NCBI RefSeq assembly: GCF_005930495.1
Contig: NZ_SJEX01000033.1
Location: forward strand, 1 to 46,918
Source of the DNA: Modestobacter excelsi
GTDB taxonomy: Bacteria; Actinomycetota; Actinomycetes; Mycobacteriales; Geodermatophilaceae
Direction: 5' to 3'
Length of the DNA stretch: 46,918 bases
The notes beneath the pieces are model-generated. The model did no database searches, was not told the origin of the DNA, and was given only the letters and a program-made list of their open reading frames with translations. The first letter of the stretch is position 1. The number at the start of each line of letters is the position of its first letter. Positions 8,434 through 43,644 of the stretch are shown here, piece by piece. A program made the position numbers and the translations under genes.

Positions 8434-10428
8434 TCACGCTGGTCGCCGCCATCCGGCGGGGGACTCCGAGAACTCGGCGAGGCGCCGGATCTTCACCACG
8501 TCGCCCGTGCGCGGGGCCTCGACGACGTTGCCGTCACCGATGTACATGGAGACGTGGTGGATCCCCGAGGGTCCGTAGAAGACCAGGTCCCCCGGTTGCG
8601 GGTCCCCGGTGGCCGGGAGGTTCCCCTCCCACTGGGCTCCCGTCCACATGCCGATGCTCCTCCCGCCCAGTGCCCTCCCCCACGCGTACTCGATCAGGCC
8701 GCTGCAGTCGAAGCCCACGGTGTTCGCACCCTGTTTCACCCCCAGCGTCGGTCCGGCCATGTCGCCACCACCGAAGCTGTAGGGCGTCCCGAGGTAGGCG
8801 AGGGCCGCGCTCACCGCCCTGCCTCCCGGGGTGTCCGGTATGCGGACCACCCACTGCCTTCCCTTGCTGGTCACGGTGACCGTCCGGCCGGGGCCGTAAC
8901 TGCCCCCTGCCGGGGACGGCGCAGGAGCCGACGGTGCGCCGCCGGCCGCACGCTGGAGGGCCGCCGTCGTCACCGGGCCGACGACGCCGTCGGCGACCAA
9001 CCCCTCCCGTCGCTGGAACGACATGACCGCCGCACGTGTCCGGGAGCCGAACACCCCGTCGACGGCCAGTCCCGCACCGATGACCCGGTTCAGGGTGCTC
9101 TGCACCCACCTGACGTCGGTGGTGGGCGACTCGAACTCCTGTGTCCACAGCGTCTCCCGCACCCTGCTCTCGCGTCTCCCGCCGAGCGACCCCGCCCACA
9201 CCTCGGAACGGAGGCCGTCCAGCTCCCGGAGCGGCTGCTGCGGGATCGGGATCTCCAGGTGGTATGCCGGATCTGAGTTCGACGGCCCGAGGAAGTAGCT
9301 GACCCGCCCGTCCGATCGGCAGGCTCGTTCGAACGCCGCCTTGTCCGCGACGGAGCTGGGAGCGACGTCGATGACCGCGAGCACCCGCGGGTCGCCGGTG
9401 TGGTGCGAGACCTTGGTGGGTCCCAGCTCGATGATCTTCCGCTCCATGTCGGCCCTGACCTGGGCGTCGCTCCGGCCGGCCGCGCTCGACGCGATGTACA
9501 CCTCGATGACCCGGTCGCCGTACGGGCCGTACAGGTCCAGTTGGCTCTGCGGGCCGAGCCGGCGACAGTTGTCGAACATGATCCGGGCCTGGTCGGCCGG
9601 CGTCCGCTGGGTGCTGGACACCAGCACCTCGCTCAGTCCGGCGGCGCGCACGATGTCGGTCAACACGCCGAGCGCGTACGGGGCCACCACTTCCCGCTTG
9701 GCGTTCGCCGCCCACCGGATGACCGGCGCGCCCGACGACGGCTGACCCGTCGCCGGCGCGCCCGGAGCGGCACCTCCCCGAGGAGGCTGAGCACCCAGCA
9801 GAGGCCGCACCTGCGTGTCGCGGATGCGCAGCCACTCCTGGCTGAGGGTGCGGAACCCCGGTTCGGAGAGGGAGAGTGAACGGCCACCCCGTGCGGGGTA
9901 CCGACGGTTGAACACCGAATCGGTGAGCGCGTTCTCGTTGGTGACGCCTCGGGCGACCTCTGCCCTGATGACCGCGTTCTCGACCGACGAGGACGTGCCC
10001 GCGGAGCTCGGCCCGTAGGAGAGCTCCGCTGCGACGGGCGCGGGAGCCGAGCCGGAGGAGCGGGCCGAGGCGCTGCGCCGCCGGTCGCTGCCCCGACCCG
10101 CCCGCAGCTCGCCGAGCAGCCCTCGCCCGGAGGCCCGACGCCGAATGCGGTACGGACGCCGACCCCCGTAGAAGAAGTTGCCGCTGACCCGCCGGTGCGC
10201 CTGGCCGTCCGGTCGGCGGACCAGCTGGACGCGGAAGTGCGGACGGGGCCGGGCGTCGTGGTCGAGGGTCCAGCCGGGACCGAGGCCGCGCGCGTGCTCC
10301 CTGGCCATCGCCCGGGCCTGCCGCGCCGTCGGACACCAGTAGTTGTGCCGCCCGGGCATGTCGGTGATCTCCACCCAGACGGTGTCCCGCGTCGCGGGGG
10401 CCGCTCCGGTGGCGGACGGACGGGTCAT
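8434..10428 (-). CDS. Multidomain cell-wall hydrolase: M15-like + PG-binding + NlpC/P60
   Basis: A 664-aa protein. An N-terminal basic region (1-130) is followed by a linker and a D,D-peptidase-like domain (about 245-400) with SSTQRTPADQ, HHTGDPRVLAVID and YHLEIP, matching the zinc site of M15-type peptidases. A PG_binding_1 domain follows (about 430-500; AVDGVFGSRTRAAVMSFQRR), then an NlpC/P60 domain (about 535-664) with catalytic Cys575 in FDCSGLIEY and His625 in HHVSMYIG. Two peptidoglycan-cutting activities in one chain suit local wall opening. There is no signal peptide, so release must come from another route or from lysis. GAGGAGGAG precedes the ATG. It is the last gene of the run that starts at 16537, 129 bp after the PLP gene. 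Such hydrolases are common beside injection systems and phage-like particles. Confidence 0.82.
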   Translation of the reverse strand: MTRPSATGAAPATRDTVWVEITDMPGRHNYWCPTARQARAMAREHARGLGPGWTLDHDARPRPHFRVQLVRRPDGQAHRRVSGNFFYGGRRPYRIRRRASGRGLLGELRAGRGSDRRRSASARSSGSAPAPVAAELSYGPSSAGTSSSVENAVIRAEVARGVTNENALTDSVFNRRYPARGGRSLSLSEPGFRTLSQEWLRIRDTQVRPLLGAQPPRGGAAPGAPATGQPSSGAPVIRWAANAKREVVAPYALGVLTDIVRAAGLSEVLVSSTQRTPADQARIMFDNCRRLGPQSQLDLYGPYGDRVIEVYIASSAAGRSDAQVRADMERKIIELGPTKVSHHTGDPRVLAVIDVAPSSVADKAAFERACRSDGRVSYFLGPSNSDPAYHLEIPIPQQPLRELDGLRSEVWAGSLGGRRESRVRETLWTQEFESPTTDVRWVQSTLNRVIGAGLAVDGVFGSRTRAAVMSFQRREGLVADGVVGPVTTAALQRAAGGAPSAPAPSPAGGSYGPGRTVTVTSKGRQWVVRIPDTPGGRAVSAALAYLGTPYSFGGGDMAGPTLGVKQGANTVGFDCSGLIEYAWGRALGGRSIGMWTGAQWEGNLPATGDPQPGDLVFYGPSGIHHVSMYIGDGNVVEAPRTGDVVKIRRLAEFSESPAGWRRPA

Positions 10429-10557: not shown

Positions 10558-11637
10558 TCACAGCGGGGCTCCCGTGCCGACGGTGCGGTGCGCCGCCTCC
10601 GCCAGCAGGTCGGCCGCCCAGTCCACCTGCGGAGCCGACAGCGTGGCGGTGAGGACGACGGTGACCGCGGCCCCCTGCCAGCACGGCGGGACGGTCACCA
10701 GGCTGCGCAGCCCCGCGGCGCCCAGCCAACTGCACATCGCGGCCGCACGCCGCCGGTCGGTCGGCTCCAGCCGCTGGACCGGGAACTCACCGGCGCCCAG
10801 CCGGACGCCCCGGTCGGTCAGCCGTCGCCGGAACCGGCGGACCAGCCAGAGCAGGCGGGCACGGAGCCGGTCCCCCGACTGCTCGTTGACGGTGAGCGCC
10901 CGGTCGGCGGCGCGGAGATCGGCGGCCGTCGGGGCGCTGCTGTGCACGCGCGTCGGCCCGCGGGTCCGGATCTCCTCGACCAGCCCGGTCGGCCCGGCCA
11001 CGACCGCCAGCGGCGCACCGAAGCCCTTGGTTAGGGAGTCCACCAGCAGCACGGGGCCGGCGGCACCGGTCCAGCGCACCGTTCCCCCGCCGCCGTGGCC
11101 GTAGGGCGCCCCGGGGTCGGGGTGCCGACCGAGGATGCCCAGCGCCTGGGTGTCGTCGAGCACGAGCACCCCGCCGTGCGGTCGCAGCGTCTCGAGGTAG
11201 CCGGCGACCGGCGCGGCCCGCCCGCAGCCGGTGCAGTACCCGTCGGCGAGGACGAGGGGACGCCGGCCCCCGCCGCCCAGGGCCCGGAGGCACCGGTCCA
11301 GCCCGGCGGGGTCGTGGTGCGGGAAGGTCCGCACCAGTACCCCCGCGCAGCGCCGGCCCGCCAGCGGCCACCGGCCGACCGGGTAGCTGGCCGCGTCCAC
11401 CAGGACGGCGTCGCCCGGGCAGCTGTTGAACAGGTCGAGGAAGGCGTGCAGGGTCGAGCGGAACAGCAGGCCGGCCTCCGCACCCACCAGTCCGGCCAGC
11501 CGCGCCGCCACGGACCGGGCGGGTTCGGCGCGGTCGAGCGCGGCCGGGACGCCCGCGGTCAGCGCGTCCCAGCCGCCGAGCTCTGCGGACGTGTGCCGCA
11601 GGCCCAGGTACAGCGAGCCGGTCAGGTCGAGCACCAC
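10558..11637 (-). CDS. PLP-dependent enzyme of the alpha-oxoamine synthase/aminotransferase fold
   Basis: This 359-aa protein is built like 8-amino-7-oxononanoate synthase and relatives (fold type I). It shows VLDDTQALGILGRH (about 172-185), where the PLP-ring Asp lies, and the Schiff-base lysine in DSLTKGFGAPLAV (about 200-212). It is near the usual length (380-400) but slightly short at the N-terminus. The start is placed at GTG 11637, 10 bases after the preceding stop, with TGAGGA about 9 bases upstream. Such enzymes join an acyl thioester to an amino acid or remodel amino acids. No biotin genes are nearby, so a modifying or secondary-metabolite role within this operon is more likely. Substrate unknown. 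Confidence 0.68.
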   Translation of the reverse strand: MVLDLTGSLYLGLRHTSAELGGWDALTAGVPAALDRAEPARSVAARLAGLVGAEAGLLFRSTLHAFLDLFNSCPGDAVLVDAASYPVGRWPLAGRRCAGVLVRTFPHHDPAGLDRCLRALGGGGRRPLVLADGYCTGCGRAAPVAGYLETLRPHGGVLVLDDTQALGILGRHPDPGAPYGHGGGGTVRWTGAAGPVLLVDSLTKGFGAPLAVVAGPTGLVEEIRTRGPTRVHSSAPTAADLRAADRALTVNEQSGDRLRARLLWLVRRFRRRLTDRGVRLGAGEFPVQRLEPTDRRRAAAMCSWLGAAGLRSLVTVPPCWQGAAVTVVLTATLSAPQVDWAADLLAEAAHRTVGTGAPL

Positions 11638-11647
11638 CGGTGCGTCC

Positions 11648-13552
11648 TCAGCCGCGACGCTGGGCGAGCAGCCGGCGCTGCAGCAGCACGGTCGGGACGG
11701 TGGCGTCGACCCGCGACGTGAGGTCGACCCCGGTCGCCGCCCGGTAGGCGTGCGTGTAGCGCTGCATCTCCGGGCGCCAGTAGCGCGCCCAGTTGGCCGC
11801 CTGCTGGGGGTCGTTGACGTCGCTCCAGTCGCCGAACCGGATCGACAGCAGGATCTGCTCCCCGTAGACCCCCAGGTCCCGGAAGTGGGTGACGCTGACG
11901 TCGGTCCAGCGCTGCATCGCCTTGAGCGAGTCCACCCGGTCCATCCAGGGCTCCGGGTAGGGCACCATGACCCGCCCACCGAGGAACTCCCGCATCTCCG
12001 GGCGGGACAGCAGCCACTCCATCACGAGCATCTCGGCCCGCGCGGTGGAGGGCAGGTCCCCGTACTGGTTGTGCGCGCCCTCGGCGAGGAGCAGGTGGGT
12101 CTCCCGCAACGCGTTGAGCACCGGGAAGCCGTCGGCGATGACGGTCGTGTCGTCGTCCTCCTTGAAGAAGACGTGCGCCAGGAACAGCAGGTTGTGGAAG
12201 GACGCGAGGAACTTGTGCCGTCGGTCGACCGTCTGCACCGGCGGGTGCAGGGCCTGGCCGGTGAGCCGCAAGCCGTACTCGTGCTCGTACTCCGCCGAGC
12301 GGCGGACCACGGTGAGCCGGGAGTACTCCTCTTGAGCCCACCCCCAGATGAGGTTGCCGAGCGGCCGGAGGGGGTCGATGTCCAGCCGGGCGAGCGGGTC
12401 GGGCCCGTGCCGCGGCGTGCGGTTCTGGAACCGGGCCAGGATCGCGTACATGGCCTGGACGAGCATCGCCTCCTCGTGCCAGTACGACCAGATCAGCTCG
12501 ATGGACAGCGGGTCGCTGATCCGCGACCGGAGGATGCCGTAGCAGGTGGCCGGCACCTCCATGGGCCCCTTGAGCGGGATGTCCCCGAGCCGTGCCTGGA
12601 TGGTGTTGAGGTAGGGCATGACCGGCCCGGACTCCTGGCGCAGCTGCTCGAAGTAGTCCGCACGCATGTCGGCGATCTGCTGCTTGGTCGGCCGGAAGCC
12701 CAGCCGGGTGGTCTCCCGCAGCGCCAGCTGCTCCGGCGTCAGCCCCTCGATCTCGCGCCACCCGGGGCTCTCGTCGGTGGCCCCCATGCGGGCCCGGCCG
12801 GTCACCACCTCGTCGGTGATGACCCCCATCTCCTGCATGAGGAAGGCGTCCGTCGCCCGGCACAGCAGCTCGAAGGCCCCGGTCCCGCGGAACTGCAGGG
12901 CCTGCCGGGCGCCGCGGACCGGGGCGGTCTCCCCGCACATCACCGAGTCGATGAACTCCTTGTACCGAGCGAAGGAGATCGCCTCGGTCCGGTTGCGGAT
13001 GATCATCCAGAGGACCTGGTCCGAGGTCGGGACGGTGGAGGTGCGCTGCAGGCTCACCGGGACGATGCCGTCCTGGTTCCTGCTGCCGGTCGGCGGGACG
13101 ACCCGGAGCCGGAACACCGCCAGGTCGGGGGGGCCGTCCGGATCGTCGCCCCTGCCCCTGGCCGACTCGGCGCGGACGGCCCGGGTGAGGGTCGATCGGT
13201 CCGCGGCGGCCAGGAGGTCCGCCGGGGCGTCGACGTCGTCGGTGCCGCCCGGGTCCGCCGGCTGCGGGTGCTCCCCCGGCGACTGCGTCGGCTTCAGGGT
13301 GCGGCGGCAGCTGACGTCGTAGGCGCCCGGGCGGAAGCCGTCGGTGTCCATCGTGAACAGGGCCGGGTCGGTGGGGTCCTGCCGACCGGCCTGGGTCACC
13401 GAATCGGTCGGGAAGGGGCCGGTGACCTCCCAGCGGAGGTCGTAGCGCTCCGCCAGGGCGCCGCCGAGGTCGGCGTCCTGGACGCGGAACCACACGGCGG
13501 TCCCGGCCGGCACGGTCTCGGTGAAGCTCGCGGAGATCTTGAAGGTGCTCAT
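11648..13552 (-). CDS. Large protein of unknown function
   Basis: A 634-aa protein. The N-terminus (1-160) looks like a small beta domain (SASFTETVPAGTAVWFRVQD) with an acidic linker. The C-terminal 470 residues are helix-rich, with many aromatic and charged positions: KEDDDTTVIADGFPVLNALR, LAEGAHNQYGDLPSTARAEM, VMVPYPEPWMDRVDSLKAMQ and AANWARYWRPEMQRYTHAYR. The high density of invariant-looking His/Trp/Asp/Glu suggests an enzyme or a defined assembly protein, but I recognise no catalytic motif. No signal peptide or membrane helix. AGGAG lies 9 bases before ATG 13552. It sits 36 bp after the protease-like gene and 10 bp before the PLP gene, so it belongs to the same transcript. Confidence 0.7.
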   Translation of the reverse strand: MSTFKISASFTETVPAGTAVWFRVQDADLGGALAERYDLRWEVTGPFPTDSVTQAGRQDPTDPALFTMDTDGFRPGAYDVSCRRTLKPTQSPGEHPQPADPGGTDDVDAPADLLAAADRSTLTRAVRAESARGRGDDPDGPPDLAVFRLRVVPPTGSRNQDGIVPVSLQRTSTVPTSDQVLWMIIRNRTEAISFARYKEFIDSVMCGETAPVRGARQALQFRGTGAFELLCRATDAFLMQEMGVITDEVVTGRARMGATDESPGWREIEGLTPEQLALRETTRLGFRPTKQQIADMRADYFEQLRQESGPVMPYLNTIQARLGDIPLKGPMEVPATCYGILRSRISDPLSIELIWSYWHEEAMLVQAMYAILARFQNRTPRHGPDPLARLDIDPLRPLGNLIWGWAQEEYSRLTVVRRSAEYEHEYGLRLTGQALHPPVQTVDRRHKFLASFHNLLFLAHVFFKEDDDTTVIADGFPVLNALRETHLLLAEGAHNQYGDLPSTARAEMLVMEWLLSRPEMREFLGGRVMVPYPEPWMDRVDSLKAMQRWTDVSVTHFRDLGVYGEQILLSIRFGDWSDVNDPQQAANWARYWRPEMQRYTHAYRAATGVDLTSRVDATVPTVLLQRRLLAQRRG

Positions 13553-13588: not shown

Positions 13589-14905
13589 TCACGCGGCGTA
13601 GAGCTGCTGGGGTCTCCCCTGCGCGGCCGCGGCGCAGAGCGCTGAGACGTCCAGCGAGCTGCGGACGGCCCACTGGGTCAGCAGGTCGCCGAGCAGCCGG
13701 CTCTCCGGTTCGGGGGCCAGCCGGCCCGCGGCCCGGGCCTGCCCGACGACCGCGAAGGCCAGCGTGGGCGGGACGGATGGGAGCAGGCCCGGACGTCGTC
13801 GCCACTCGTCGAACCGCGCCAGCAGGGGGCCGGCCCGGCGGTCGGGAAGGAACAACTCCTCGCGCAGCGACCGTCCGTGCAGGCTCGACGGCCGGTGGTC
13901 GAGCAGCAACCGGACGAATTCCGGCGCGGCCGCGACGAGCCCGGCGATCGACTGCCGGTGGGCAGGGGGCAGCTCCGCCAGGGGGTAGAGCGCACGCCAC
14001 AGCCGCCACGTGGCGGCCCACTGCGGGTGGGGGTACAGCTCTTCGCCGATCGCGCAGCTGAGGCGGACCCGGACGTAGGGAACGGGGTGCGGGTCGGCTC
14101 CGCTGGGCCGGAAGACGAACCAGCGGGGCAGGCTGACCACGCCCATGAGTCCCAAGGTCGAGGAGATGCCGAGACGGGCCACCGACCAGAGATCGGCGAC
14201 GATCTCGGAGGCCCACTGGTCGAAGCAGGCCCACGTCCCGCGCGCCTGCGGTGGCAGGTACCGCTGCGCCCGACGGACGTCGTCCCGGATCCCTGGGACG
14301 AGGTCCAGCAGCGCGGCGGCCTGGTGCCCCACCTCGTGCACGAGGGAGCTGGCGATGCCGTGCCCGATCATCCGCTCGCGCGGGACCCGGATGATCGCGA
14401 CCGGGTTCGCGGAGTTCCCCGGGAGTCGGGTCCGCGCGCGGCGGATGGCGGCTCCCGGGCCGCGCGCCAGGTAGCAGACCACCGGTGGCACGTCCAGGAC
14501 CGACCGCGGCAGGCTGAGTGCGTCGGCCGCCAGCACGTCGAGGCCGGACAGCCAGACACCGGTGGCGTGCTCGCTGCGCTGGGTGATCACCTCGGTGAAC
14601 AGGTCGAACTGCGACAGCACGTCGTTGAAGCGCAGCCGGATGAGCGTGAACCGCCGCTGCTGTTCGGCCGGGGACGCCTCGAGGCCCGGCCCGCGCAGCC
14701 AGCCGAGGTAGTCGAGGACCAATCCGTGGAGGGTTCGCCGCCCCTCGATGAGCAAGCCGTCGATGGCCGCCTGCGCGGTCGGGAACAGGGCCGCGGCCGG
14801 CACCATCGTCTCGTGCACGGCGAAGGGCCTGACCTGGTCCAACCGGGTCAGCAGCGCCCGCGCCTCCTCCTCGAGGAAGCGGATCGGGAGCGGATCGCGC
14901 GGCAC
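13589..14905 (-). CDS. HEVGH zinc-metallopeptidase-like protein
   Basis: This 438-aa protein carries the zincin motif HEVGH at about 189-193 (LVHEVGHQAAALLDL). A downstream Glu in WASEIVADLW, about 40 residues later, could be the third zinc ligand (gluzincin-like). The preceding region has GHGIASSLVHEVG, and the C-terminal half is helical (GVVSLPRWFVFRP onward). No signal peptide, propeptide or membrane segment. The start is GTG 14905, 2 bases beyond the preceding stop, which implies translational coupling; no strong ribosome site is seen. Its place directly after the two hydrophobic-core paralogues suggests that it processes or guards them; this is inference. Alternative: a structural protein with a zinc site. 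Confidence 0.7.
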   Translation of the reverse strand: MPRDPLPIRFLEEEARALLTRLDQVRPFAVHETMVPAAALFPTAQAAIDGLLIEGRRTLHGLVLDYLGWLRGPGLEASPAEQQRRFTLIRLRFNDVLSQFDLFTEVITQRSEHATGVWLSGLDVLAADALSLPRSVLDVPPVVCYLARGPGAAIRRARTRLPGNSANPVAIIRVPRERMIGHGIASSLVHEVGHQAAALLDLVPGIRDDVRRAQRYLPPQARGTWACFDQWASEIVADLWSVARLGISSTLGLMGVVSLPRWFVFRPSGADPHPVPYVRVRLSCAIGEELYPHPQWAATWRLWRALYPLAELPPAHRQSIAGLVAAAPEFVRLLLDHRPSSLHGRSLREELFLPDRRAGPLLARFDEWRRRPGLLPSVPPTLAFAVVGQARAAGRLAPEPESRLLGDLLTQWAVRSSLDVSALCAAAAQGRPQQLYAA

Positions 14906-14907
14906 GA

Positions 14908-15750
14908 TCAGACCCCGTGCAGCACCATCGTGCCGCCGCGGCGCTCCCAACGACCGGCTCGTGGGCGACCGGAGTTCGACGTCTCCAGCTCCAAGCCGTC
15001 CGTCTCGTCGGGCCCGGCGCCGCCGGGCTCGTAGCCGCCGTCGTCGGGCTCGTAGCTGCCGTCGTCGGGCTCGTAGCTGCCGTCGGAGGGGGTCGGGTAG
15101 GGCACGGGATAGGCGAATCCGGGCCGGGGCCGCGGGCGGCCGGGGCGGGACGGACGTCCTGGCCGGCGACGGCGGGACGACCGGCGCAGCCCCGGGGTCG
15201 CGGCCACGATCGCCGCCTGCGCCACCGCCCGCGGCGGCGCGTTGCGCGGGGCGGACGCCGCGGTGCGGGCGGCCCGGGCGCCCATCCGGACGACCTCCTG
15301 GGCGACGGCGAACTCGGCCTCCTCCTCGTTCATCGACTCGAGCTCCAGCTCGAACAGGTTGCTCGCCATCGAGCCGAGGGTCGAGCCGAGGGCCGTCCCC
15401 ACCCCCGGCACGACCGACCCGAGGGCGCCGCCCACGATGGGCAGCGCGGACTTGGCCACGTTCTTCAGCCCACCGACGAGGGCCTTGCCCGCACCGGACC
15501 GGGCGAAGTCCCTCACGCCCTTGGCCGCCCGGCTGACCAGCTTGCCGAGGAACTCCTCGAGCTCGGCCTCGGAGGTGACCTCCAGCAGCTCGCTCGCGAG
15601 TTCCATCTCCTGCGTCGCGCCGAGACCCCCGCCGGTCTCCCCGCTCACCAGTTCGGCGAACAGCTCCTGCTCGCCCTGCTCGGTCTCCCACTCACCAGTC
15701 GGGTTCTCGTACTCGTTGCCGTACCCGTACTCGGTCTCGTAGCTCGTCAC
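14908..15750 (-). CDS. Acidic N-terminus, hydrophobic Gly-rich core, tail-tagged protein (paralogue B)
   Basis: A 280-aa protein in clear sections: an acidic, Tyr/Glu-rich N-terminus (ETEYGYGNEYENPTGEWE), a helical segment (MELASELLEVTSEAELEEFL), a hydrophobic glycine-rich core (about 95-145; KSALPIVGGALGSVVPGVG), an acidic helix (EEEAEFAVAQEVVRMGARAA), a basic Pro/Arg stretch, three YEPDDG-type repeats, and the ending GRWERRGGTMVLHGV. The section order and the ending match the neighbouring 244-aa protein. The core resembles pore-forming or membrane-inserting peptides, but no function is established. The start is GTG 15750 with AGGAGAGGAC upstream. It is the second gene of the presumed sigma-54 transcript, 52 bp after the first. 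Confidence 0.72.
   Translation of the reverse strand: MTSYETEYGYGNEYENPTGEWETEQGEQELFAELVSGETGGGLGATQEMELASELLEVTSEAELEEFLGKLVSRAAKGVRDFARSGAGKALVGGLKNVAKSALPIVGGALGSVVPGVGTALGSTLGSMASNLFELELESMNEEEAEFAVAQEVVRMGARAARTAASAPRNAPPRAVAQAAIVAATPGLRRSSRRRRPGRPSRPGRPRPRPGFAYPVPYPTPSDGSYEPDDGSYEPDDGGYEPGGAGPDETDGLELETSNSGRPRAGRWERRGGTMVLHGV
15015..15092. repeat. Short in-frame tandem repeat (YEPDDG type)
   Basis: About three copies of a 21-bp unit encode DGSYEPD-like heptads within paralogue B. The unit may change length between strains. Confidence 0.6.
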
Positions 15751-15802: not shown

Positions 15803-16537
15803 TCAGAAGCCGTGCAGCACGACGGTGTTGCCGTGCCGGACCCAACGGCCCGACTGCGGCTGCGAGCCCGGCCGCGCCGGGGGTGCCGAGTCATCGGCAC
15901 CGCGAACCGGCAGCCGGCTCAGCACCGGAGCCAGCCCGGGGGCGAGGTGCTGCGCAGCGGCCACCGCCGCGGCCTTGGCGGCACGGGCCGGCGGTCCCTG
16001 CGCGGGGGTGGCGGCCGCTCGACGCGCGGCGTCGGCGGTCCAACGGACGAGCGCCTGGGCGGTCTCGAACTCCCGGTCCTCCTGGCTGAGCCCCTCCAGC
16101 TCGAGGCCGAGCAGGTCGCCGGACGCGCCGCCGCCTCCCCGCTCGCCGTTGCCGGACCGCGCCCACCCACCCACGGCCTGGCGGACGACGGGCAGCGCTT
16201 GGCCGATGGCCGACTTCGCGATGCCCGTGAGCGTCTGGCCGGTCGGCGTCCTCGCGAAGCTGCGCACAGCCCCCGCCGCGCGGTCGACCAGGCTGCCGAG
16301 GAACCGGTCGAGCTCCTGCTCGGTGCTGACGCCGAGCAGCTCGAGGGCGAACTCGGTCTCCGGGACCTCCCCCTGCAACGGGGCCCTCGACGACCACTCC
16401 ATCTCGTAGCCACCTGCGGGGATGATCTCGCCGAGCACCTCGAGGAACTCCTCATGCTCGGCGCCGAGCGCCCCCCGCCCGTCCTCGTGCTCCTCCTCCG
16501 TGGCCGCCTCCAGCATCGTGCGGTCCAAGTCGTGCAT
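15803..16537 (-). CDS. Acidic N-terminus, hydrophobic core, tail-tagged protein (paralogue A)
   Basis: A 244-aa protein, first gene of the run. It has a Glu/His-rich start (MLEAATEEEHEDGRG), the helix ETEFALELLGVSTEQELDRF, a hydrophobic stretch around GIAKSAIGQALPVVRQAVGG, then QEDREFETAQALVRW, an Ala-rich helix, and the final GRWVRHGNTVVLHGF. Alignment by eye with the next gene is continuous from the ELL-V-(T/S) helix to the last residue, so the two arose by duplication. No signal peptide. GGAGGAGG lies 6 bases before ATG. A -24/-12 promoter ends about 30 bases upstream of the start codon. Proteins with similar tails recur in bacteria as unnamed families; I know of no assigned role. Confidence 0.75.
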   Translation of the reverse strand: MHDLDRTMLEAATEEEHEDGRGALGAEHEEFLEVLGEIIPAGGYEMEWSSRAPLQGEVPETEFALELLGVSTEQELDRFLGSLVDRAAGAVRSFARTPTGQTLTGIAKSAIGQALPVVRQAVGGWARSGNGERGGGGASGDLLGLELEGLSQEDREFETAQALVRWTADAARRAAATPAQGPPARAAKAAAVAAAQHLAPGLAPVLSRLPVRGADDSAPPARPGSQPQSGRWVRHGNTVVLHGF

Positions 16538-16578: not shown

Positions 16579-16594
16579 TGCAAGAAGCGTGCGC
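16579..16594 (-). promoter_or_regulatory. Sigma-54 (-24/-12) promoter
   Basis: Read on the minus strand this is GCGCACGCTTCTTGCA. Against the consensus TGGCACG-N4-TTGCW it matches 10 of 12 fixed positions, with the exact 10-bp spacing and an intact -12 GC. The first G of the -24 GG is C. The expected start of transcription is near 16568, about 30 bases before the paralogue A start codon. It faces the operon and lies just downstream of a sigma-54 gene. Confidence 0.65.
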
Positions 16595-16645
16595 ACCCGC
16601 GGGCACGGGCGGGACGCGGGTCCGGGAGGGTGCCGGCGACCGGCT

Positions 16646-16695
16646 GTTCGCCGCGCCTGCTGGATGGGCACCCGGTCGCGAACCCCGGTTCGCCG
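16646..16695. promoter_or_regulatory. Putative enhancer (upstream activator) sites
   Basis: A dyad, GCGAACC-CC-GGTTCGC, lies at 16678-16693, about 115 bp upstream of the expected transcription start, where enhancer-binding proteins usually bind. Its half-site GTTCGCCG (16688-16695) recurs exactly at 16646-16653, 42 bp away, or four helical turns on the same face. No T-run is present, so a terminator for rpoN is less likely, though possible. Confidence 0.5.
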
Positions 16696-16701
16696 TCGGG
16701 C

Positions 16702-17991
16702 TCAGCGCAGGTGCTGCGCAGGGATGCCGAGCTGCTGCCGGTACTTGCGGACGGCGCTGCGGCTGACGGAGTGGCCGCGCTCGGCCAGTGCCCGCGCGAG
16801 GTCCGCGTCCGACATCGGCGCGCGCTCCCCGGCCACCAGGCCGCGCAGGCACTCGTGCGCGGTGCGGGCCCGCCCGAAGAGGTCGCCCAGCGGGACGACC
16901 CGCCCGCCCGGCAGCTCGACCGACTTGCCCTGCACGGCCCGGCTCACGGTCGACTCGTGCAGCCCGAGGGCGGCGGCGACGTCCGTACGGGTCATCGGCG
17001 CCGGAGCCGGCGTGCGGGCCAGCAGGAAGGCGCGCTGCCGCTCCGCCACCTCGACGCCGACCCGCTGCAACGTGTGCGCCCGCTGGGCCAAGCGGTCGAG
17101 GAAGGCGGCGGCCTCGGCCAGAGACCGGGTGAGCACCTGGCGCTCGCCGTCAGAGAGCCGGGTGAGACGCCCCCGATCGGCAGCGAGGCCGACGAAGTCC
17201 GGGTGCAACCGGAGCCGCGGCTGCCGCACCAGGGAGACCCGCACCTCCCCGTCCGCGACGGTCACCACCAGGTCGGGGCGGAGGCGGGGTGGCCGGGCGG
17301 TTCCGCGGTCCACGGGCACGCACGGCCGCATCCGGGTGCGGAGGTACTCCCAGGCGGCCGTCACCTCCTCCACCGGCACGCCGAGCGCCCGGGCGACGGA
17401 GGGCAGGCGCCCCCGCGCGAGCGCAGGCAGGTGGTCCCGGACGACGGAGCGCAGGACCGCCGGGGCGTCGGGGAGCGCGTCGAGCTGCAGCAGGAGGCAG
17501 TCGACGAGGTCGACCGCGCAGAAGCCGGCAGGGGCCACCTGGCGGATCGCCGCCACCACCCGCCGGATGCGGGCCACGGGGAGGCGCAGGTCGGCGGCGA
17601 GGCACTCGGGTGACCGGTCGAGGTAGCCGCGGTCGTCGAGGTCGGCGACGACGTGGTCGAGCAGCAGCCGGTCGGCGCTCGGGAGCAGCGCGGCGGCCGC
17701 GGTGACGACGTCGGCGAGCTCGCCTGGCGGCTCGGCTGCCGGGTCCCCGTCGAGGACGGGCCCGCCGGGCCGGGGAACGGCCGGGACCGCGAGGCACCCG
17801 CAGGCGCCCGAGGCCGCCACGGTGCCGCAGACCGGGCACTCGCCCGGGTCGTCCAAGGCCGGGTTGCCGGCCAGCACGTCCCGGACGTGCAGTTCCAGCT
17901 CGACGTCCGGTAGAGCGAGCAGGTGGGCCGCCTGCACGAGCGCGGGGGTCACCGTGAGGGCGTGGGTCAGCTCCTGCCGCAGGCCGGTCAC
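16702..17991 (-). CDS. rpoN: RNA polymerase sigma-54 factor
   Basis: A 429-aa protein with the sigma-54 order. Region I (about 4-48) has LTVTPALVQAAHLLALPDVE, the activator-interacting helix. The core-binding region (about 95-225) has LDDRGYLDRSPECLA and APAGFCAVDLVDCLLLQL. The HTH (about 331-360) has ALGLHESTVSRAVQGKSVEL. The RpoN box is SRSAVRKYRQ (410-419; consensus ARRTVAKYRE). Region II is short and contains four Cys (CPVC at 52-55 and CGC at 64-66), which look like a small zinc site. The family directs RNA polymerase to -24/-12 promoters and needs an ATP-driven activator. Start GTG 17991 overlaps the activator gene's stop (GTGA), with AAGGACGG upstream. Sigma-54 is generally regarded as missing from Actinobacteria, so this is a notable find. 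Confidence 0.9.
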   Translation of the reverse strand: MTGLRQELTHALTVTPALVQAAHLLALPDVELELHVRDVLAGNPALDDPGECPVCGTVAASGACGCLAVPAVPRPGGPVLDGDPAAEPPGELADVVTAAAALLPSADRLLLDHVVADLDDRGYLDRSPECLAADLRLPVARIRRVVAAIRQVAPAGFCAVDLVDCLLLQLDALPDAPAVLRSVVRDHLPALARGRLPSVARALGVPVEEVTAAWEYLRTRMRPCVPVDRGTARPPRLRPDLVVTVADGEVRVSLVRQPRLRLHPDFVGLAADRGRLTRLSDGERQVLTRSLAEAAAFLDRLAQRAHTLQRVGVEVAERQRAFLLARTPAPAPMTRTDVAAALGLHESTVSRAVQGKSVELPGGRVVPLGDLFGRARTAHECLRGLVAGERAPMSDADLARALAERGHSVSRSAVRKYRQQLGIPAQHLR

Positions 17992-19457
17992 GGCGTGCCG
18001 TCCTTCCCGGGCAGCGAGGCGGCGCGCTGCTGCTGCTTCTGCAGGGCCCGGGGGGTGAGGCCGAGCATCTCCGCCGCGCGCTTCTGGTTGCCTCCGGCCC
18101 GTCGGAGCGCGACCCGTCGGGCACTGGAGGTCACGGCCGTGTGGATGTCGTCGTAGCGGACGCCGCGGTCCAGGGCTGACCCGATCACGGCGTCGAGGTC
18201 CGGCTCGCCCCAACCCGGGGCCGGCCGAAGTGCCGGCCGCTCGGCGTCGCCCTCGCCGTCGTCCCCGCCGTCGTCCTTGCCGTCGTCCTCGCCGTCGAGC
18301 GGCGGCGCCGGGACGGGGCGGAAGCGCGGCCGCTCGTCCTCCGGCACGTCCCCGACGGTGATCGGACCGCTGCCGACGTGGCGGGTCAGCACCCGGAGCG
18401 CGAGTTGGCGCAGGTCCCGGACGTTCCCGGGGTAGCTCCGACAGCGCAGCAGGTCGGCCACGTCCGCGTCGACGCCGAGGTCGTGGCCGCGCACGACCCG
18501 TAAGAAGTGGCGGAACAGCGGGAGGATGTCGTCCGGCCGGTCCCGCAGCGGCGGCAACGCCACGGTGGACACCGCGATGCGGTAGAAGAGGTCCGCGCGG
18601 AAGCGTCCCTCCTCGACCTCCCTCGGCAGGTTCCGGTTGGTGGCGCAGACCAGCCGGAACGAGGTGTGCAGCCAGTCGTTCCCACCCACCCGCTTGAAGG
18701 TGCCCTCCTGGACGACACGGAGCAGCTCGGCCTGCAGCGGCAGCGGCAGCTCACCCACCTCGTCGAGGAAGAGCGTGCCGCCGTGGGCGGCGGAGAACGC
18801 GCCCTCCCGTGCGGCGTGGGCGCCGGTGAACGCGCCCTTCTCGTGACCGAAGAACTCGCTGCCCGACAACCCCGGGACCACGGTGGTGCAGTCGACCACG
18901 ACGAGCCGGCCCCGGACCACCCGCGGGTCGAGGTGGTGGACCAGGCGTGAGGCCAACTCCTTCCCGGTGCCCGACTCGCCGGTGATGAGCAGTGGTGAAC
19001 TGGAGAAGCGGGCCGTCTCGACCAGCGTGGTCAGCGCTCGCAGCCACCTGGTCGAGGTACCGACCAGCTCGTTCCGGACGGTGTCACTGGTCAGCAGCTC
19101 GGCCAGCGCCGCCCACCGGTGCAGGCGACTACCGAGCTCGTTCCCCAGGTCCGGCCCGGACACGAGGACGTCGTCGGCGCCCTGCTCGAGGAGTCGCCAT
19201 CCGTCACCCCGGCCCAGGCCCGACCGGTCGGTCAGCACGGCCAGCACCCGCCGGCCTCGAACGCCGGCGACCGAGGCGACGTGCGCGAGCGCACCCGGCG
19301 TGACCTCGTCCAGAGCGAGCACCAGCGACGCACCGTCCGCTGGGACCCCGTCCGGCAGCACGACGATGTCGCAGGACTCGACGTGCTGCCGCAGCCGCAG
19401 CACGAATCCCGCTGACCGCGTCAGCGAGATGTCGAGCGTGACGGTCGTGCGGCCCAT
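17988..19457 (-). CDS. Sigma-54-dependent transcriptional activator (enhancer-binding protein)
   Basis: A 489-aa protein. Residues 1-115 resemble a receiver domain but lack the usual acidic pair and the conserved Lys; Asp50 (LALDEVTPG) might be the acceptor. The AAA+ domain (about 130-365) has Walker A GESGTGKE (160-167), the sigma-54 contact loop GAFTGA (208-213), Walker [10 protein letters not shown] (229-237) and an arginine-finger region ([10 protein letters not shown]). A linker with repeated DDG acids (about 395-420) leads to a Fis-type HTH at the end ([23 protein letters not shown]). GAFTGA shows that the target is sigma-54 polymerase. GGGGGA lies 5 bases before ATG. The sigma-54 gene overlaps its stop, so the two are made together. 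The receiver-like domain suggests control by a partner or ligand instead of ordinary phosphorylation; no sensor kinase is adjacent. Confidence 0.93.
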
Positions 19458-22068: not shown

Positions 22069-23337
22069 GTGAACCCGGAGGGCCCGTTCACCTACGCCGT
22101 GCTGCGCCCGTTGAGCGACCTGTTCCTCTGGACGTGGCGCCTGGAGCGCCGGCTCGAGTTCCTGTACCGCCAGCACTTCGACCGGTGGTTGCGCCCGCCG
22201 CTGTTCGCCCTGCTGCAGGGCCTGCAGAACCTGCTGCGGCGCGAGGACGAGCGTCTGGGCCTCGCCGAGGAGCGGGAGCTGCCCGACGAGGAGCGTTGCA
22301 ACCAGGAGATCATCGACACGATCAGCGCGTTCACCCGTGAGAACTGGCTGCCCGGCGGTGCGCAGCGGTTCGGGAACACCAAGACGTTCGGGGTCCTGCG
22401 CGGGGAGTTCACCGTCCTCCCCGACCTGCCCGAGGACCTGCGGCACGGGCTCCTCCGCGAGCCCCGGACCCATCCCGCGTGGGTCCGGTTCTCCGGTCCC
22501 GGCCCCTTCTCGCCCCCTGACCTCGAGGACCTGGGCCAGTGCTCGGTGGCGATCAAGGTCATGGACGTGGACGGCCGGAAGCTCATGCCCGACGAGCAGC
22601 GCACCCAGGACCTGATCCTGGTCTCGCCCGCGAGCTTCGTCACGCCGGACGTCCGGGAGAACTCCAGGATGCAGCGGTGGGTGCGGGCCAAGGCCCCGCT
22701 GGGCTACCTGCTCGACCCGCCGGGGCGCCACCTGCTCCACCTGACGATGCAGCTGCTCTACAGCCCCGTGCACGGCAACCCGCTGGAGGTGCAGTACTAC
22801 AGCAACGTGCCGTTCCTCCTCGGCGAGGGACGGGCCGTCCAGTACTCCCTCAAGCCGAGGCAGGAGCCCCGGACGAGGATCCCCGCCCACCCCGGCGAGA
22901 ACTACCTGCGCGACGCCATGGTCCGCACGCTGGCCGCCGGCCACTGGGAGATGGACTTCATGGTGCAGGTGCAGACCGACCCGCACCGGATGCCGGTCGA
23001 GGACGCCACCGTGAAGTGGCCCGAACGCCTCTCGCCGTACCTCCCGGTGGCCCGGCTGCGGCTCCCGGCCCAGCGCTTCGACAGTGACGCGCAGCTGGCC
23101 TTCGCCGACGTGCTCCGGTACAACCCGTGGCACAGCCTCCCGGAGCACCGGCCCCTCGGTAACTCCAACCGCGCTCGGCGCCGGATGTACGAGGAGCTGG
23201 CCGAGCTCCGTCAGTCGATGAACGCCTCGCCGCACGTCGAGCCCGACGGCACCGAGGTCTTCCCCGACGGCGACCGGGCTCCGGAGCCACGACGCCGGCC
23301 CGGCACCGCACACCCGCGCGTCGCGTCCGAGGGCTGA
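22069..23337 (+). CDS. Catalase-fold haem protein (catalase-related family)
   Basis: A 422-aa protein of the short catalase-related family, smaller than true catalases (about 480-750). The N-terminal amphipathic part (1-70) may touch membrane. The family's distal motif is replaced by RFGNTKTFGVLRGEF (100-114): where catalases have the essential His, this protein has Asn103. The remainder keeps WVRFSGPGPFSPPD, IKVMDVDGRKLM and the typical ending NPWHSLPEHRPLGNSNRARR. Loss of the distal His argues against H2O2 dismutation and for a different haem reaction, such as handling organic or fatty-acid hydroperoxides as allene oxide synthase-type relatives do; that is inference. The start is GTG 22069. 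The gene is followed 12 bp later by its neighbour, in one operon with two other haem enzymes. Confidence 0.78.
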   Translation: MNPEGPFTYAVLRPLSDLFLWTWRLERRLEFLYRQHFDRWLRPPLFALLQGLQNLLRREDERLGLAEERELPDEERCNQEIIDTISAFTRENWLPGGAQRFGNTKTFGVLRGEFTVLPDLPEDLRHGLLREPRTHPAWVRFSGPGPFSPPDLEDLGQCSVAIKVMDVDGRKLMPDEQRTQDLILVSPASFVTPDVRENSRMQRWVRAKAPLGYLLDPPGRHLLHLTMQLLYSPVHGNPLEVQYYSNVPFLLGEGRAVQYSLKPRQEPRTRIPAHPGENYLRDAMVRTLAAGHWEMDFMVQVQTDPHRMPVEDATVKWPERLSPYLPVARLRLPAQRFDSDAQLAFADVLRYNPWHSLPEHRPLGNSNRARRRMYEELAELRQSMNASPHVEPDGTEVFPDGDRAPEPRRRPGTAHPRVASEG

Positions 23338-23349
23338 GGGAGGACCGGC

Positions 23350-24615
23350 ATGCCCCAGCAGTCCGCGGTCACGGTCCTCGCACCGCTGCCGCCGGAGAAC
23401 AGGGACCGGGTGCTCGACGCGCTGGCGCATCTCGCCGGGCCCGGACGTTCGGCCCTGGCGTTCGACCGGCACCCCGGCCTGCACTTCGCCCGGCTGCTCC
23501 TCGTGGAGGGAGGTCCGAGCCCGACCGGCGCGGAGATCGGCCCGAGCCTGCTCTACGCAGCCGACCTGGACGGCTCGGCCGAGGCCCACCTCCGTGCGCT
23601 GGCCGACGTCTCGGCCGAGGGTCTGGACCGGGCGTTCGGCTCCTGCACCGGGTACCCGGAGCGACCGGACCCGGACGGCCGGACGGCGTGGCTGAAGGCC
23701 CACCGGATCCCCGAAGCGGCCTTCTACGTCAACACGGTCGGACGGGGCGTTTCGCAGGTCCTCGCCGAGGAGGGGCTGCGCCGGGGACTGGAGACCTACC
23801 TCGACGCGCACCGGGCGGACGTGGCAGGCCTGTCCCCCGGCCAGATCCACGCAGTCCTCCGCCGGCACGCGCTCGCCGACCCGCAGCTGCGGTTCGGGGC
23901 CGTGCCTGCGCGCCGGCCGCCGGTGTGGTGGCGGACGCGCGAGCGCGCCCACCTGGTCGCCGTCCCGCTGGTGCTGCTGCCGGTGGCCCCCCTCATCCTC
24001 CTGGCGCTGCCGTTCGTGGCCGTCGCGCTCCGGCTGCACGAGGTCCGGGACGTGCCCGACCGTCAGCGGCCCGATCCCGCCGCCGTGGAGCGCCTGCGGG
24101 CCGCCGAGGACCGCGTGGGTCAGAACCCGTTCGCTGCCGTCGGCTTCCTCAAGCCGGGGCCCTTCCGGGCCGTCCTCACCCGGGTCGTCCTCCTCGCGAT
24201 CAGCTACGCCGTCCGCCACGTGCTCAACCGCGGCGACCTCGCCGGGGTCAAGACGATCCACTTCGCGCGCTGGGTCTACCTCACACCGGAACGGATGGTC
24301 TTCCTCAGCGCCTACGACGGCAGCCTCGAGAGCTACATGAACGACTTCATCGACAAGGTCGCCTGGGGCCTCAACGCCATCTTCAGCAACGGGATCGGCT
24401 ATCCCCCGACGGTCCTCCTCCTCTGGCGAGGCGCCCGCCAGGAGGACCTGTTCAAGGACCATCTGCGCAACCACCAGGCACTCAACCAGGTCTGGTGGTC
24501 GGCCTACGACCAGCTCACCGCTCTCAACACCGGCTCGAACGCGGCCATCCGCACCGGGCTGGCCCGGCGCTCGCTGTCCGACGCGGAGGCCCGCGCATGG
24601 CTCGCCCTGCTCTGA
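23350..24615 (+). CDS. Membrane-associated protein of unknown function in the peroxidase operon
   Basis: A 421-aa protein. Residues 1-185 look like a tandem ferredoxin-like (dimeric alpha/beta barrel) region (VTVLAPLPPENRDRVLDALA, LHFARLLLV), the fold that DyP peroxidases also use. One strongly hydrophobic segment (about 198-230) gives one or two membrane helices. The C-terminal half has a distinctive patch HFARWVYLTPERMVFLSAYD, GSLESYMNDFIDKVAWGLN, SNGIGYPP and VWWSAYDQLTALNTGSNAAI. No catalytic motif is known to me. GGGAGGAC precedes ATG. The gene overlaps the DyP gene by 19 bases, so the products are likely made together; a membrane platform for the peroxidases is a reasonable guess. Confidence 0.72.
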   Translation: MPQQSAVTVLAPLPPENRDRVLDALAHLAGPGRSALAFDRHPGLHFARLLLVEGGPSPTGAEIGPSLLYAADLDGSAEAHLRALADVSAEGLDRAFGSCTGYPERPDPDGRTAWLKAHRIPEAAFYVNTVGRGVSQVLAEEGLRRGLETYLDAHRADVAGLSPGQIHAVLRRHALADPQLRFGAVPARRPPVWWRTRERAHLVAVPLVLLPVAPLILLALPFVAVALRLHEVRDVPDRQRPDPAAVERLRAAEDRVGQNPFAAVGFLKPGPFRAVLTRVVLLAISYAVRHVLNRGDLAGVKTIHFARWVYLTPERMVFLSAYDGSLESYMNDFIDKVAWGLNAIFSNGIGYPPTVLLLWRGARQEDLFKDHLRNHQALNQVWWSAYDQLTALNTGSNAAIRTGLARRSLSDAEARAWLALL

Positions 24616-26111
24616 CGGCCGGCAACCGCCGCGCCGGCCTGGCCGGCGCGGGGACCGGCGCCCCACCTCCTGTCACCGACAGTGGGCGGCGCCTCGACCG
24701 CGCCGACGTCCAGGGGCTCGTGGGCAGCGGCTACGGCCGCCTGCCGGAGGCGGTGTTCCTCGGCCTGCAGGTCGACGACGGCGCCGCGGGCCGCAGGCTG
24801 CTCGCCGACCTGCTCCCCCTCGTGACGAGCATGGCCGGCGACCGTGCCGACAGCGCGCTCAACGTCGCGGTCAGCCACCCGGGCCTCGGCCGGCTGGGGA
24901 TGCCGCAGGCGGCGCTGGCGGGGTTCTCCCTGGAGTTCGCCGGCGGGATGGCCGCCCCCACCCGCAGCGCCTTCCTCGGGGACGTCGGGGAGCAGGCGCC
25001 GGCCACCTGGGCGTGGGGCGGACCGCACCACCCGCGGGTCGACCTCCTCCTCCTCCTGTACGCCCGATCAGCGGAGGAGCTCACCGCGCACCGCGACTCG
25101 ATCCGGCAGCGGTTCCCGGCCGACGGCGTCCGGGAGGTCGTCGCGCTGCCCACGACGCCGGTGTCCCCCCGCGACCACCTCGGGTTCGCCGACGGGATCT
25201 CCCAGCCCGCGGTGACCGGCCTGCACGGCCGCAGCGAGCGGGGCGTCGCGCTGGGAGAGTTCCTGCTGGGGTACCCCAACGCCTACGGCCGGCGCACCGG
25301 GCGCCCGCTGCTCCCCGCCGCGGACGACCCGGGCCGGGTGCTGCCACCCGCGCCCCGCGCGGACGCGCCCGACAGCGTCGACCTCGGCCGCGACGGCAGC
25401 TACCTCGTCGTCCGGACGCTGGCCGTCGACGTCGACGCCTTCTGGAGCCACGTCCACCGGTGGGCGGCCCGGACCGGGCTGCCGCCTGAGCAGGTGGCGG
25501 CCAAGATGGTCGGACGCTGGCCCGACGGCACGTCCCTGACCGTGAGCCGCGACCACCCGCTCGGCGACGAGCCGGTCGACAACGACTTCCGGTACCACCG
25601 CGACGGCGACGCGGCCGGCCTGGGCTGCCCGATCGCCGCGCACGTCCGCCGGGCCAACCCGCGGGACTCGCTCGATCCTCGTCCTGGCTCGGACGCCTCT
25701 GTGCGGGTCAACGACCGGCACCGGCTGATCCGCCGGGGTCGGCAGTACGGCCCCCCGCCGGGGACCTCCGACGGGACCGGGCCCGACGGTGAGCGCGGGC
25801 TGCACTTCCTCTGTCTGAACGCCAACCTCAGCCGCCAGTTCGAGTTCGTCCAGCACACCTGGATGGACAACCCGGCGTTTGCGGGCCTGCACGGCAGCCC
25901 GGACCCGATCGCCGGCCACCACCCGCCGGACGGCGGCGGGGTGTTCCCCCTCCCGGCCGATCCCGTCCGCCACCGATTGCTGGACCTGCCGCGCTTCCTG
26001 CGGCTCCGCGGTGGGGGCTACTTCTTCCTGCCCGGCGTCCGCGCCCTGCACCACCTCGCCTCCCACCCGGCTCACCAGTCGTCCGTGCGCGACGGGAAGG
26101 ACCGCCCATGA
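24597..26111 (+). CDS. DyP-type haem peroxidase
   Basis: A 504-aa protein with the DyP marks: GxxDG as GFADG (196-200) with the catalytic Asp, the proximal haem His349 in IAAHVRRANPRDS, and a distal-Arg region NDRHRLIRRGRQYGP, followed by FLCLNANLSRQFEFVQ near the end. DyP peroxidases use H2O2 to oxidise dyes, lignin-like phenols or other small molecules. No Tat signal is visible in this chain (the N-terminus MARPALTAGNRRAGLAG is Ala/Gly-rich and lacks an RR-hydrophobic pattern), so it would be cytoplasmic or encapsulated; no encapsulin is nearby. The start ATG 24597 lies inside the previous gene. The next gene starts at its stop (ATGA). It is longer than most bacterial DyPs (about 310-450), which fits the longer class. 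Confidence 0.9.
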   Translation: MARPALTAGNRRAGLAGAGTGAPPPVTDSGRRLDRADVQGLVGSGYGRLPEAVFLGLQVDDGAAGRRLLADLLPLVTSMAGDRADSALNVAVSHPGLGRLGMPQAALAGFSLEFAGGMAAPTRSAFLGDVGEQAPATWAWGGPHHPRVDLLLLLYARSAEELTAHRDSIRQRFPADGVREVVALPTTPVSPRDHLGFADGISQPAVTGLHGRSERGVALGEFLLGYPNAYGRRTGRPLLPAADDPGRVLPPAPRADAPDSVDLGRDGSYLVVRTLAVDVDAFWSHVHRWAARTGLPPEQVAAKMVGRWPDGTSLTVSRDHPLGDEPVDNDFRYHRDGDAAGLGCPIAAHVRRANPRDSLDPRPGSDASVRVNDRHRLIRRGRQYGPPPGTSDGTGPDGERGLHFLCLNANLSRQFEFVQHTWMDNPAFAGLHGSPDPIAGHHPPDGGGVFPLPADPVRHRLLDLPRFLRLRGGGYFFLPGVRALHHLASHPAHQSSVRDGKDRP

Positions 26112-26542
26112 CCCCCAGCACCGATCTGGCCCGCGTGCTGCTTGCCGCCGTCCGCCTGACGATGGGGACGGCGGGTCTGCTCGCACCAGGTCTGGTCATC
26201 CGCCGGCTGGACATCGACCCGACGACGCAGCCGGGGATGCGGTACCCGCTGCGGATGTTCGGTATCAGGACCGTCCTCATCGGGGCGGAGCTGCTGACCC
26301 CGGACACGCGCCGGCGGTGGCACGCAGAACGGCTGGCCCCGCTCGTCCACGGCAGCGACACGGTGTCGGCGTTCATCGCCTGGCAGCTCGGCGACCTGCC
26401 CCGGCGTGCCGGTGCCATGGCCACCGCCATCTCGGCGGTCAACCTGGTCCTGTCGATCGTGAACCTGCGGTCGCACCGCCCCGAGCCGCCGCGCCGCCGG
26501 TTCGCCGCGGGACTCCCCCGTCGTGCCCCCCGGTGCCGCTGA
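26108..26542 (+). CDS. Small membrane protein in the peroxidase operon
   Basis: A 144-aa protein with three to four hydrophobic helices (around 8-30, 46-62, 78-95 and 100-118), a conserved-looking MRYPLRMFGIRTVLIGAELL, and a basic Pro/Arg tail. The pattern resembles DUF4267-like small integral proteins; no function is known. Its ATG overlaps the DyP stop (ATGA), so it is translationally coupled. It could anchor or couple the haem enzymes at the membrane; this is inference. Confidence 0.6.
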   Translation: MTPSTDLARVLLAAVRLTMGTAGLLAPGLVIRRLDIDPTTQPGMRYPLRMFGIRTVLIGAELLTPDTRRRWHAERLAPLVHGSDTVSAFIAWQLGDLPRRAGAMATAISAVNLVLSIVNLRSHRPEPPRRRFAAGLPRRAPRCR

Positions 26543-26606
26543 TCTCGTCGTCGGCCAGCTCCGGCTGGACGAGGTCAGCACGCCGCTCTTCCGAGGAGAC
26601 CACACC

Positions 26607-39923: not shown

Positions 39924-39925
39924 GA

Positions 39926-43640: not shown

Positions 43641-43644
43641 CGGT

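Follow-up and report, generated by a model that had tools for sequence, protein, structure and literature searches.

A sigma-54 gene, its activator and their putative target operon in Modestobacter excelsi: evidence for a probable horizontally acquired regulon

The window analysed here, a stretch of 46,918 nucleotides of the actinobacterium Modestobacter excelsi (contig NZ_SJEX01000033.1), carries on its minus strand a gene for sigma-54 (rpoN) that overlaps the gene of a sigma-54 activator, a bacterial enhancer-binding protein (bEBP). Between rpoN and a co-directional run of putative target genes (16537-8434, minus strand) lie two putative enhancer dyads and, downstream of them, a -24/-12-like site. 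We read the locus as a horizontally acquired, self-contained sigma-54 regulon made up of sigma factor, activator, sites and operon, and give this reading a probability of about 0.87. A first-pass annotation, made from the letters of the DNA, had described the gene pair as intact and not a relic, which agrees with both frames being open. The features concerned are the following:

16702..17991, minus strand: rpoN, sigma-54, 429 amino acids (Pfam AID, CBD and DBD domains, alignments, GTGA overlap)
17988..19457, minus strand: sigma-54 activator (bEBP), 489 amino acids (Sigma54_activat, HTH_8, alignment of 26 sequences)
16678..16693, no strand: putative enhancer dyad 1, GCGAA-N6-TTCGC, exact (counterpart dyads in relatives)
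16636..16651, no strand: putative enhancer dyad 2, one mismatch, 42 bp from dyad 1 (sequence)
16579..16594, minus strand: -24/-12-like site GCGCACG-CTTC-TTGCA, 41 nt before the first target ATG

The sigma-54 gene, its activator and the candidate sites

The rpoN product consists of the AID, a linker with four cysteines, the CBD and a shortened DBD with a helix-turn-helix (HTH). It matched Sigma54_AID (2.3e-8, 34.2 bits against a Pfam cut-off of 23.8), which means that region I is present, as well as Sigma54_CBD (8.6e-26, 91.2 bits against 22.9) and Sigma54_DBD (1.3e-25, 90.4 bits against 22.8), so that its earlier description as complete, with region I, core-binding domain and HTH, was confirmed. 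Its closest PDB relatives by phmmer were sigma-54 chains (7qwp, 7.9e-31), and it gave the sole sigma-54 DNA-binding domain match across the 5.26-Mb genome. The NCBIfam model rpoN_sigma was matched with 1e-58 and 199.5 bits, under its equivalog cut-off of 277.35, which is a naming threshold; by this NCBIfam measure, the protein is a divergent member and not a standard equivalog. A chance match to sigma-54 was ruled out by all three domains together with the co-conserved sites. The open frame (16702-18213) exceeds the gene, whose start was placed by homology at the GTG at 17991; this GTG shares a GTGA with the TGA stop of the activator gene. The RpoN box had been read correctly as SRSAVRKYRQ, in which the second arginine is altered.

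The activator matched Sigma54_activat (7.2e-54) and HTH_8 (3.8e-7), which completed the Pfam check proposed for the pair with all its models matched. It has an AAA+ domain with Walker motifs and GAFTGA and a Fis-type HTH, and is thus the full GAFTGA-type activator that had been announced. Its N-terminal domain had no Pfam match. No receiver domain was matched in the window protein at E up to 1, nor was one present among 25 of the 38 families listed for the 26 activator members; the stretch before the AAA+ domain resembles, by eye only, the end of a receiver. The gene lies directly upstream of rpoN and in the same direction in the window, in a second genome of the genus (G007, URHA0031), in Kibdelosporangium and in Rhodococcus rhodnii. 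It lies at the far end of the block, facing the target operon, in a third genome of the genus (G008), in G728, G671 and ten more actinobacterial loci, and directly downstream of rpoN in a Chloroflexi locus. The overlap of the two genes, real in the window, thus does not characterise the family.

Dyad 1 is the only exact GCGAA-N6-TTCGC in the window. Matches to the dyad pattern number three in the whole window against 1.6 expected, a count that is unremarkable; their pairing and place, two putative enhancer dyads 42 bp apart upstream of the target promoter, are remarkable. No other dyad pair with at most one mismatch each was found within the window, so transcription of rpoN and the activator gene probably starts at a promoter of a different kind. 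The -24 part of the window site departs from TGGCACG at -26/-25 and its -12 half, TTGCA, is optimal; all 16 bp are identical in G007.

Of the 18 rpoN-bearing actinobacterial lineages, read ahead of the first target gene or, for Agromyces, past the end of rpoN, 15 have TGGCACG with TGC at -12. The exceptions are Micromonospora (TGGCCCC-TTTC-TTGCA) and the window and G007 (GCGCACG-CTTC-TTGCA). The pair had been said to adjoin an apparent target, and the -24/-12 sites and paired dyads of the relatives support this, those of the window being less canonical. For scoring, a fixed weighting of the consensus was applied to 85 loci, from which two duplicates (L040, L108) were excluded and another ten skipped for want of upstream sequence or a recognised first gene, including L038, whose sites were visible in a separate reading. 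In 50 of the remaining 73 loci (13/18 actinobacterial, 37/55 others) no other 16-mer on either strand scored as high as the best site. Dyad pairs with at most two mismatches each and 40-44 bp apart were present in 53 of the 73 loci, at exactly 42 bp in 37; among 13,800 random stretches drawn from these loci, 7 had one. In L027 a wrong, higher-scoring site was picked and was counted as a miss in both tallies. As the dyad pattern had been read off actinobacterial loci, only the other 55 loci test it independently; 48 of these have such a pair. Closer pairs were found in actinobacteria at 20 bp (Pseudarthrobacter, two Arthrobacter) and at 31-32 bp (AC_7, Rhizocola), which is near two and three helical turns, respectively. 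As a natural control, dyad and promoter are both missing from an Actinomadura locus that lacks rpoN and activator.

A genome-wide regulon was also sought and rejected. Counts of the pattern TGGCACGNNNNNTGCW in 12 genomes ranged from 2 to 35, with 3-5 in the three carriers of the genus against 2-6 in five non-carriers of the same genus, and fell below the reversed-pattern control in 11 of the 12. These counts do not support the idea, put forward in a passage of PMC12316311, that high GC blurs such promoters with chance sites.

If these elements work together, a signal would be sensed by the activator, perhaps through its N-terminal domain, and the activator would bind the two dyads in the gap downstream of rpoN. 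The sigma-54-RNA polymerase would bind the -24/-12 site at 16579-16594, where the GAFTGA loop of the activator would open the complex and switch on the co-directional operon.

The target genes and their distribution across phyla

The putative target genes form a run downstream of rpoN:

15803..16537, minus strand: target gene 1, glycine-rich protein of 244 amino acids ending GRWVRHGNTVVLHGF (43-row family alignment)
14908..15750, minus strand: target gene 2, paralogue of gene 1, ending GRWERRGGTMVLHGV (start inferred)
13589..14905, minus strand: putative zinc metalloprotease with HEVGH (start inferred)
11648..13552, minus strand: conserved cassette protein of 634 amino acids (35-row alignment)
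10558..11637, minus strand: pyridoxal phosphate (PLP)-dependent BioF/serine-palmitoyltransferase-like protein (start inferred; NCBIfam bioF 8e-18, below cut-off)
8434..10428, minus strand: NlpC/P60 peptidoglycan hydrolase with PG_binding_1, last gene of the run (Pfam 9.7e-16 and 1.8e-14)

The two glycine-rich paralogues, the HEVGH protease, the 634-residue protein and usually the PLP enzyme make up the shared cassette, whose gene order is kept in G007, G008 and G728 and rearranged in G671; the PLP enzyme was not found in G008 and G671. Residues H181 E182 V183 G184 H185 of the protease are invariant in four aligned sequences. Neither the two glycine-rich proteins nor the protease nor the 634-residue protein had a match in Pfam, NCBIfam or PHROGs; a sequence search of the PDB returned nothing for the protease or the 634-residue protein and, for the glycine-rich family, two weak matches. 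When plasmids were searched with a relative of the protease, six records with uninformative names came back. Given the NlpC/P60 hydrolase, the protease and glycine-rich proteins with a common C-terminus, the operon product may act at the cell envelope, a guess that we hold with little confidence.

The co-occurrence of cassette and rpoN was examined at several taxonomic depths. Among 97 relatives (23 of the genus, the present genome included, 34 of the family and 40 of the order), a sigma-54 match over the cut-off was found in three: the present genome, G007 and the single-contig G008, i.e. in 3/23 members of the genus. In a class sample of 394 genomes four passed the cut-off, of which three are convincing (the present genome, G671 and G728). 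Weak Pfam matches in G087, G810, G586, G687 and G751 (E 2.6e-4 to 7.2e-4) were rejected as sigma-54; G810 (E 2.6e-4) passes the cut-off and was nevertheless not counted, and the frames of G087 and G810 only were inspected. In a phylum sample of 396 genomes 18 passed, namely the present genome, 15 strong matches outside its class (E 1.3e-36 or better) and two weak ones that were not counted (G396, G423), with G386, G399 and G414 below the cut-off. Thirteen of the genomes outside the class (L005-L017) have a canonical sigma-54 (E 1.9e-58 to 2.7e-50). The census that had been suggested thus yielded carriers in 3/97 relatives and, convincingly, in 3/394 of the class sample, and the strong matches in 15 genomes outside the class show that canonical sigma-54 exists elsewhere in the phylum. 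The premise that sigma-54 is absent from Actinobacteria, which passages of PMC3162934 and PMC12316311 state, stands in print, and the canonical sigma-54 of these other classes runs contrary to it.

In two genomes of other classes of the phylum, L029 (G430) and L030 (G374), rpoN adjoins an activator-like gene, and TGGCACG-N4-TTGCA sites lie nearby (L029, 6626 and 9847; L030, 127), in L029 ahead of genes that by eye resemble FAD oxidoreductases.

Within the genus, the HEVGH protease was found in exactly the three rpoN genomes of 23. In the class sample close matches (E<1e-200) were restricted to the same three genomes with convincing rpoN; 14 further matches (E 7.7e-36 to 6.8e-4), all in genomes without counted rpoN, represent noise or remote homologues. 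A dozen class-sample genomes without sigma-54 contain such remote relatives of the cassette protease, with E about 1e-16 to 1e-36.

When named genomes were scanned using the protease alignment, 134 relatives emerged, of which 80 were kept, 17 of them actinobacterial; the cassette relatives belong to Proteobacteria, Acidobacteria, Chloroflexi, Gemmatimonadetes, Planctomycetes, Verrucomicrobia, Nitrospirota and others. By profile search of the 80 fetched loci, some of which are short contigs, rpoN lies inside the locus in 14 of the 17 actinobacterial cases against one of the 63 others, that of a Chloroflexi bacterium (L097). Thirty of the 80 carrier genomes (15 actinobacterial, 14 others and the Chloroflexi carrier) were searched whole. 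Exactly one sigma-54 was found in 13 of the 15 actinobacterial carriers, in 12 at the cassette rpoN and in Agromyces (L058) on another contig; there rpoN lies near the contig end, with a pair of dyads spaced 42 bp and TGGCACG-GAAC-TTGCA behind it, an arrangement that an assembly break could explain. The sole sigma-54 of the Chloroflexi carrier is the cassette's own. Each of the 14 other carriers has one canonical sigma-54 (8.6e-58 to 1.4e-70) outside the cassette locus; the profile search detected none within that locus. Seven carriers gave a single strong Sigma54_activat match each (E<1e-50), and seven genomes lacking rpoN gave no match of this strength. Weak matches around 1e-7 occurred in all of these genomes and the family also matched all 14 controls, archaea included, so these are probably other AAA+ proteins. 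The pattern suggests that the operon would be sigma-54-dependent across phyla; as actinobacteria are mostly without a housekeeping sigma-54, it would there travel with a dedicated one in order to work.

That the contig is a contaminant from a phylum with sigma-54 would fit the general absence of this factor from Actinobacteria given in passages of PMC3162934 and PMC12316311. It was nevertheless rejected, since the same block is held by two further assemblies of the genus, G008 on one contig and G007 as a separate assembly. GC content, moreover, stays at 0.64-0.77 in 2-kb steps over the window and at 0.73-0.77 at the gene pair, and the window sigma-54 sits within an actinobacterial clade; contamination is thus extremely improbable.

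The cassette sigma-54 clade and the changed -24 element

A tree of 41 sigma-54 rows (midpoint root; many of unusual composition and one on a long branch) placed the 18 actinobacterial cassette sequences in one clade with support 100/99, next to the Chloroflexi cassette sequence (split 100/97). The phylogeny called for by the first-pass annotation is in keeping with an overlooked lineage, one of its two suggestions. Within the clade the window sequence groups with AC_7 and Rhizocola (97/93), and that of the same-genus G008 with Georgenia and Cellulomonas (100/100). These positions in different parts of the tree suggest separate acquisitions within one genus and, with carriers in only 3/23 of its members, favour the other suggestion, horizontal gain. 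Old vertical inheritance from an actinobacterial ancestor, with loss in nearly all lineages, would account for the single clade of all 18 sequences and for canonical sigma-54 in other classes of the phylum. The rarity of carriers (the present genome included, 3/97 relatives and 3/394 of the class sample) and the split within the genus, however, oppose it, as do nine other sigma-54s of the phylum that fall outside the clade, and we regard it as rather improbable.

The cassette proteins are also set apart by their structure. The linker between region I and the CBD carries C-x2-C and a second cysteine pair in 17 of the 18 (CxC in the window, CC in G671 and CxxC in most), whereas AC_7 lacks the motif, as do all 23 other sequences. 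Acidic residues make up 5-17% of the linker against 17-42% in the others. From HTH to RpoN box, 17 cassette proteins span 61-64 residues and the Chloroflexi protein 63, whereas 21 others span 74-77; the L116 value was dropped because the pattern had matched at an earlier place, and L016 was left out. On these sequence features, the cassette sigma-54 is a distinct subfamily with a zinc-ribbon-like linker and a shortened DNA-binding domain. The linker cysteines may bind zinc, and the linker looks like a structured replacement for the acidic region II.

Several observations weigh against a working, self-contained regulon. The window promoter is not significant by score alone, as 26 window positions score as high. 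Dyad pairs at 40-44 bp occur in just 5/18 actinobacterial loci; the other actinobacterial loci have pairs at 20-32 bp, poorer dyads with more mismatches, or none, and Lentzea and Micromonospora have the promoter but no convincing dyad pair. Actinomadura KC216 (L087) and Streptomyces scabichelini (L111) have cassette genes and neither a sigma-54 match nor a strong activator match in their genomes, so that in these two genomes the block may be inactive or under some other control. Finally, between the window and G007 (429 aligned rpoN codons, 93% amino-acid identity) the ratio of nonsynonymous to synonymous substitution rates (dN/dS) is 0.50 for rpoN, above the 0.22 of the protease and 0.23 of the 634-residue protein, so that slow decay is possible.

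The last point bears on the -24 element. An SRSA sequence in the RpoN box is confined to the window and G007, and so is a -24 element that reads GCG in place of TGG; both arginines are retained in the other 16 cassette sequences. We take the arginine lost from the window protein to be one of the two known as R455 and R456 in the model sigma-54. Alanine mutants at either position, R455A or R456A, cannot bind promoter regions according to a passage of PMC7175178, and the RpoN box contacts -24 according to one of PMC7057263. Both co-evolution and decay fit these changes, which represent one evolutionary event, so no statistic is possible on their pairing. If the imported sigma-54 were decaying in the window's lineage, the arginine and -24 changes would be early damage and the operon silent or read from another promoter; the SRSA box, the mutant phenotypes and the dN/dS of rpoN point in this direction. 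The frames are open in two species, however, the 16-bp site with its optimal -12 half is the same in both, both dyads are kept and AID and CBD score above their cut-offs. The changes are also older than the split of the two species, and decay appears unlikely. We tentatively propose, at somewhat less than even odds, that the operon spread across phyla and, on entering bacteria that had no sigma-54, brought along a dedicated one of distinct structure, and that co-evolution of this sigma factor with its promoter then led, along the window's lineage, to a new specificity at -24 (ARRT to SRSA, TGG to GCG), giving a natural orthogonal sigma-54.

Neighbouring genes, implications and comparison with known systems

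Beyond the operon end lies a gene for a galactose-oxidase-like protein with LGFP repeats (5686-7722), and near the window edge a TIR-domain gene (206-757, Pfam TIR_2 3.3e-22). An animal-haem-peroxidase family protein of 642 amino acids (26523-28451, 9.4e-106) is preceded, by eye only, by catalase-like and Dyp-peroxidase-like frames (region 22069-28451). A second minus-strand cluster (34042-46916) includes an AAA+ ATPase with a winged-helix variant domain and a CIS13-like protein (42486-43670, NCBIfam 6.1e-12, below cut-off), which suggests contractile injection system genes.

The distribution of the cassette suggests that a regulatory system may move as a complete unit, comprising sigma factor, activator, enhancer, promoter and target; enhancer-dependent operons would then not necessarily be excluded from hosts without sigma-54. 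For changes in -24 recognition, the window's lineage is a natural test case, and a single-target sigma-54 from a high-GC host might serve as an orthogonal expression tool. Several of the carriers are named strains.

Actinobacteria lack a sigma-54 system according to a passage of PMC3162934 (2011), and PMC12316311 (2025) concludes that the phylum is effectively without functional RpoN. The latter names divergent RpoN-like genes in Alloactinosynnema L-07, Modestobacter marinus BC501 and Citricoccus SGAir0253-1 that it does not take as bona fide RpoN, and its section on them describes no cassette, promoter or enhancer for them. These genes probably belong to the same family as the cassette sigma-54, and the present sequence data argue against Actinomycetota effectively lacking functional sigma-54. 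No description of the cassette was found in the openly licensed literature, judged by titles and abstract beginnings.

Enhancer-binding proteins of the NtrC/NifA type have an AAA+ domain with Walker motifs and GAFTGA, a Fis-type HTH and paired upstream dyads. The window activator shares these domains and motifs and has a pair of putative upstream dyads, whereas its putative dyad is GCGAA-N6-TTCGC and its N-terminal domain has no Pfam counterpart. Like canonical RpoN (PF00309, PF04963, PF04552; TIGR02395), the cassette sigma-54 has the three domains in the same order, the HTH and the RpoN box, an activator gene and, in most cassette relatives, -24/-12 sites. It differs in the four-cysteine linker that replaces the acidic region II in 17/18, in an HTH-to-box distance about 12 residues shorter, in the window protein's score under the NCBIfam equivalog cut-off, and in occurring with one operon in a phylum said to lack sigma-54.

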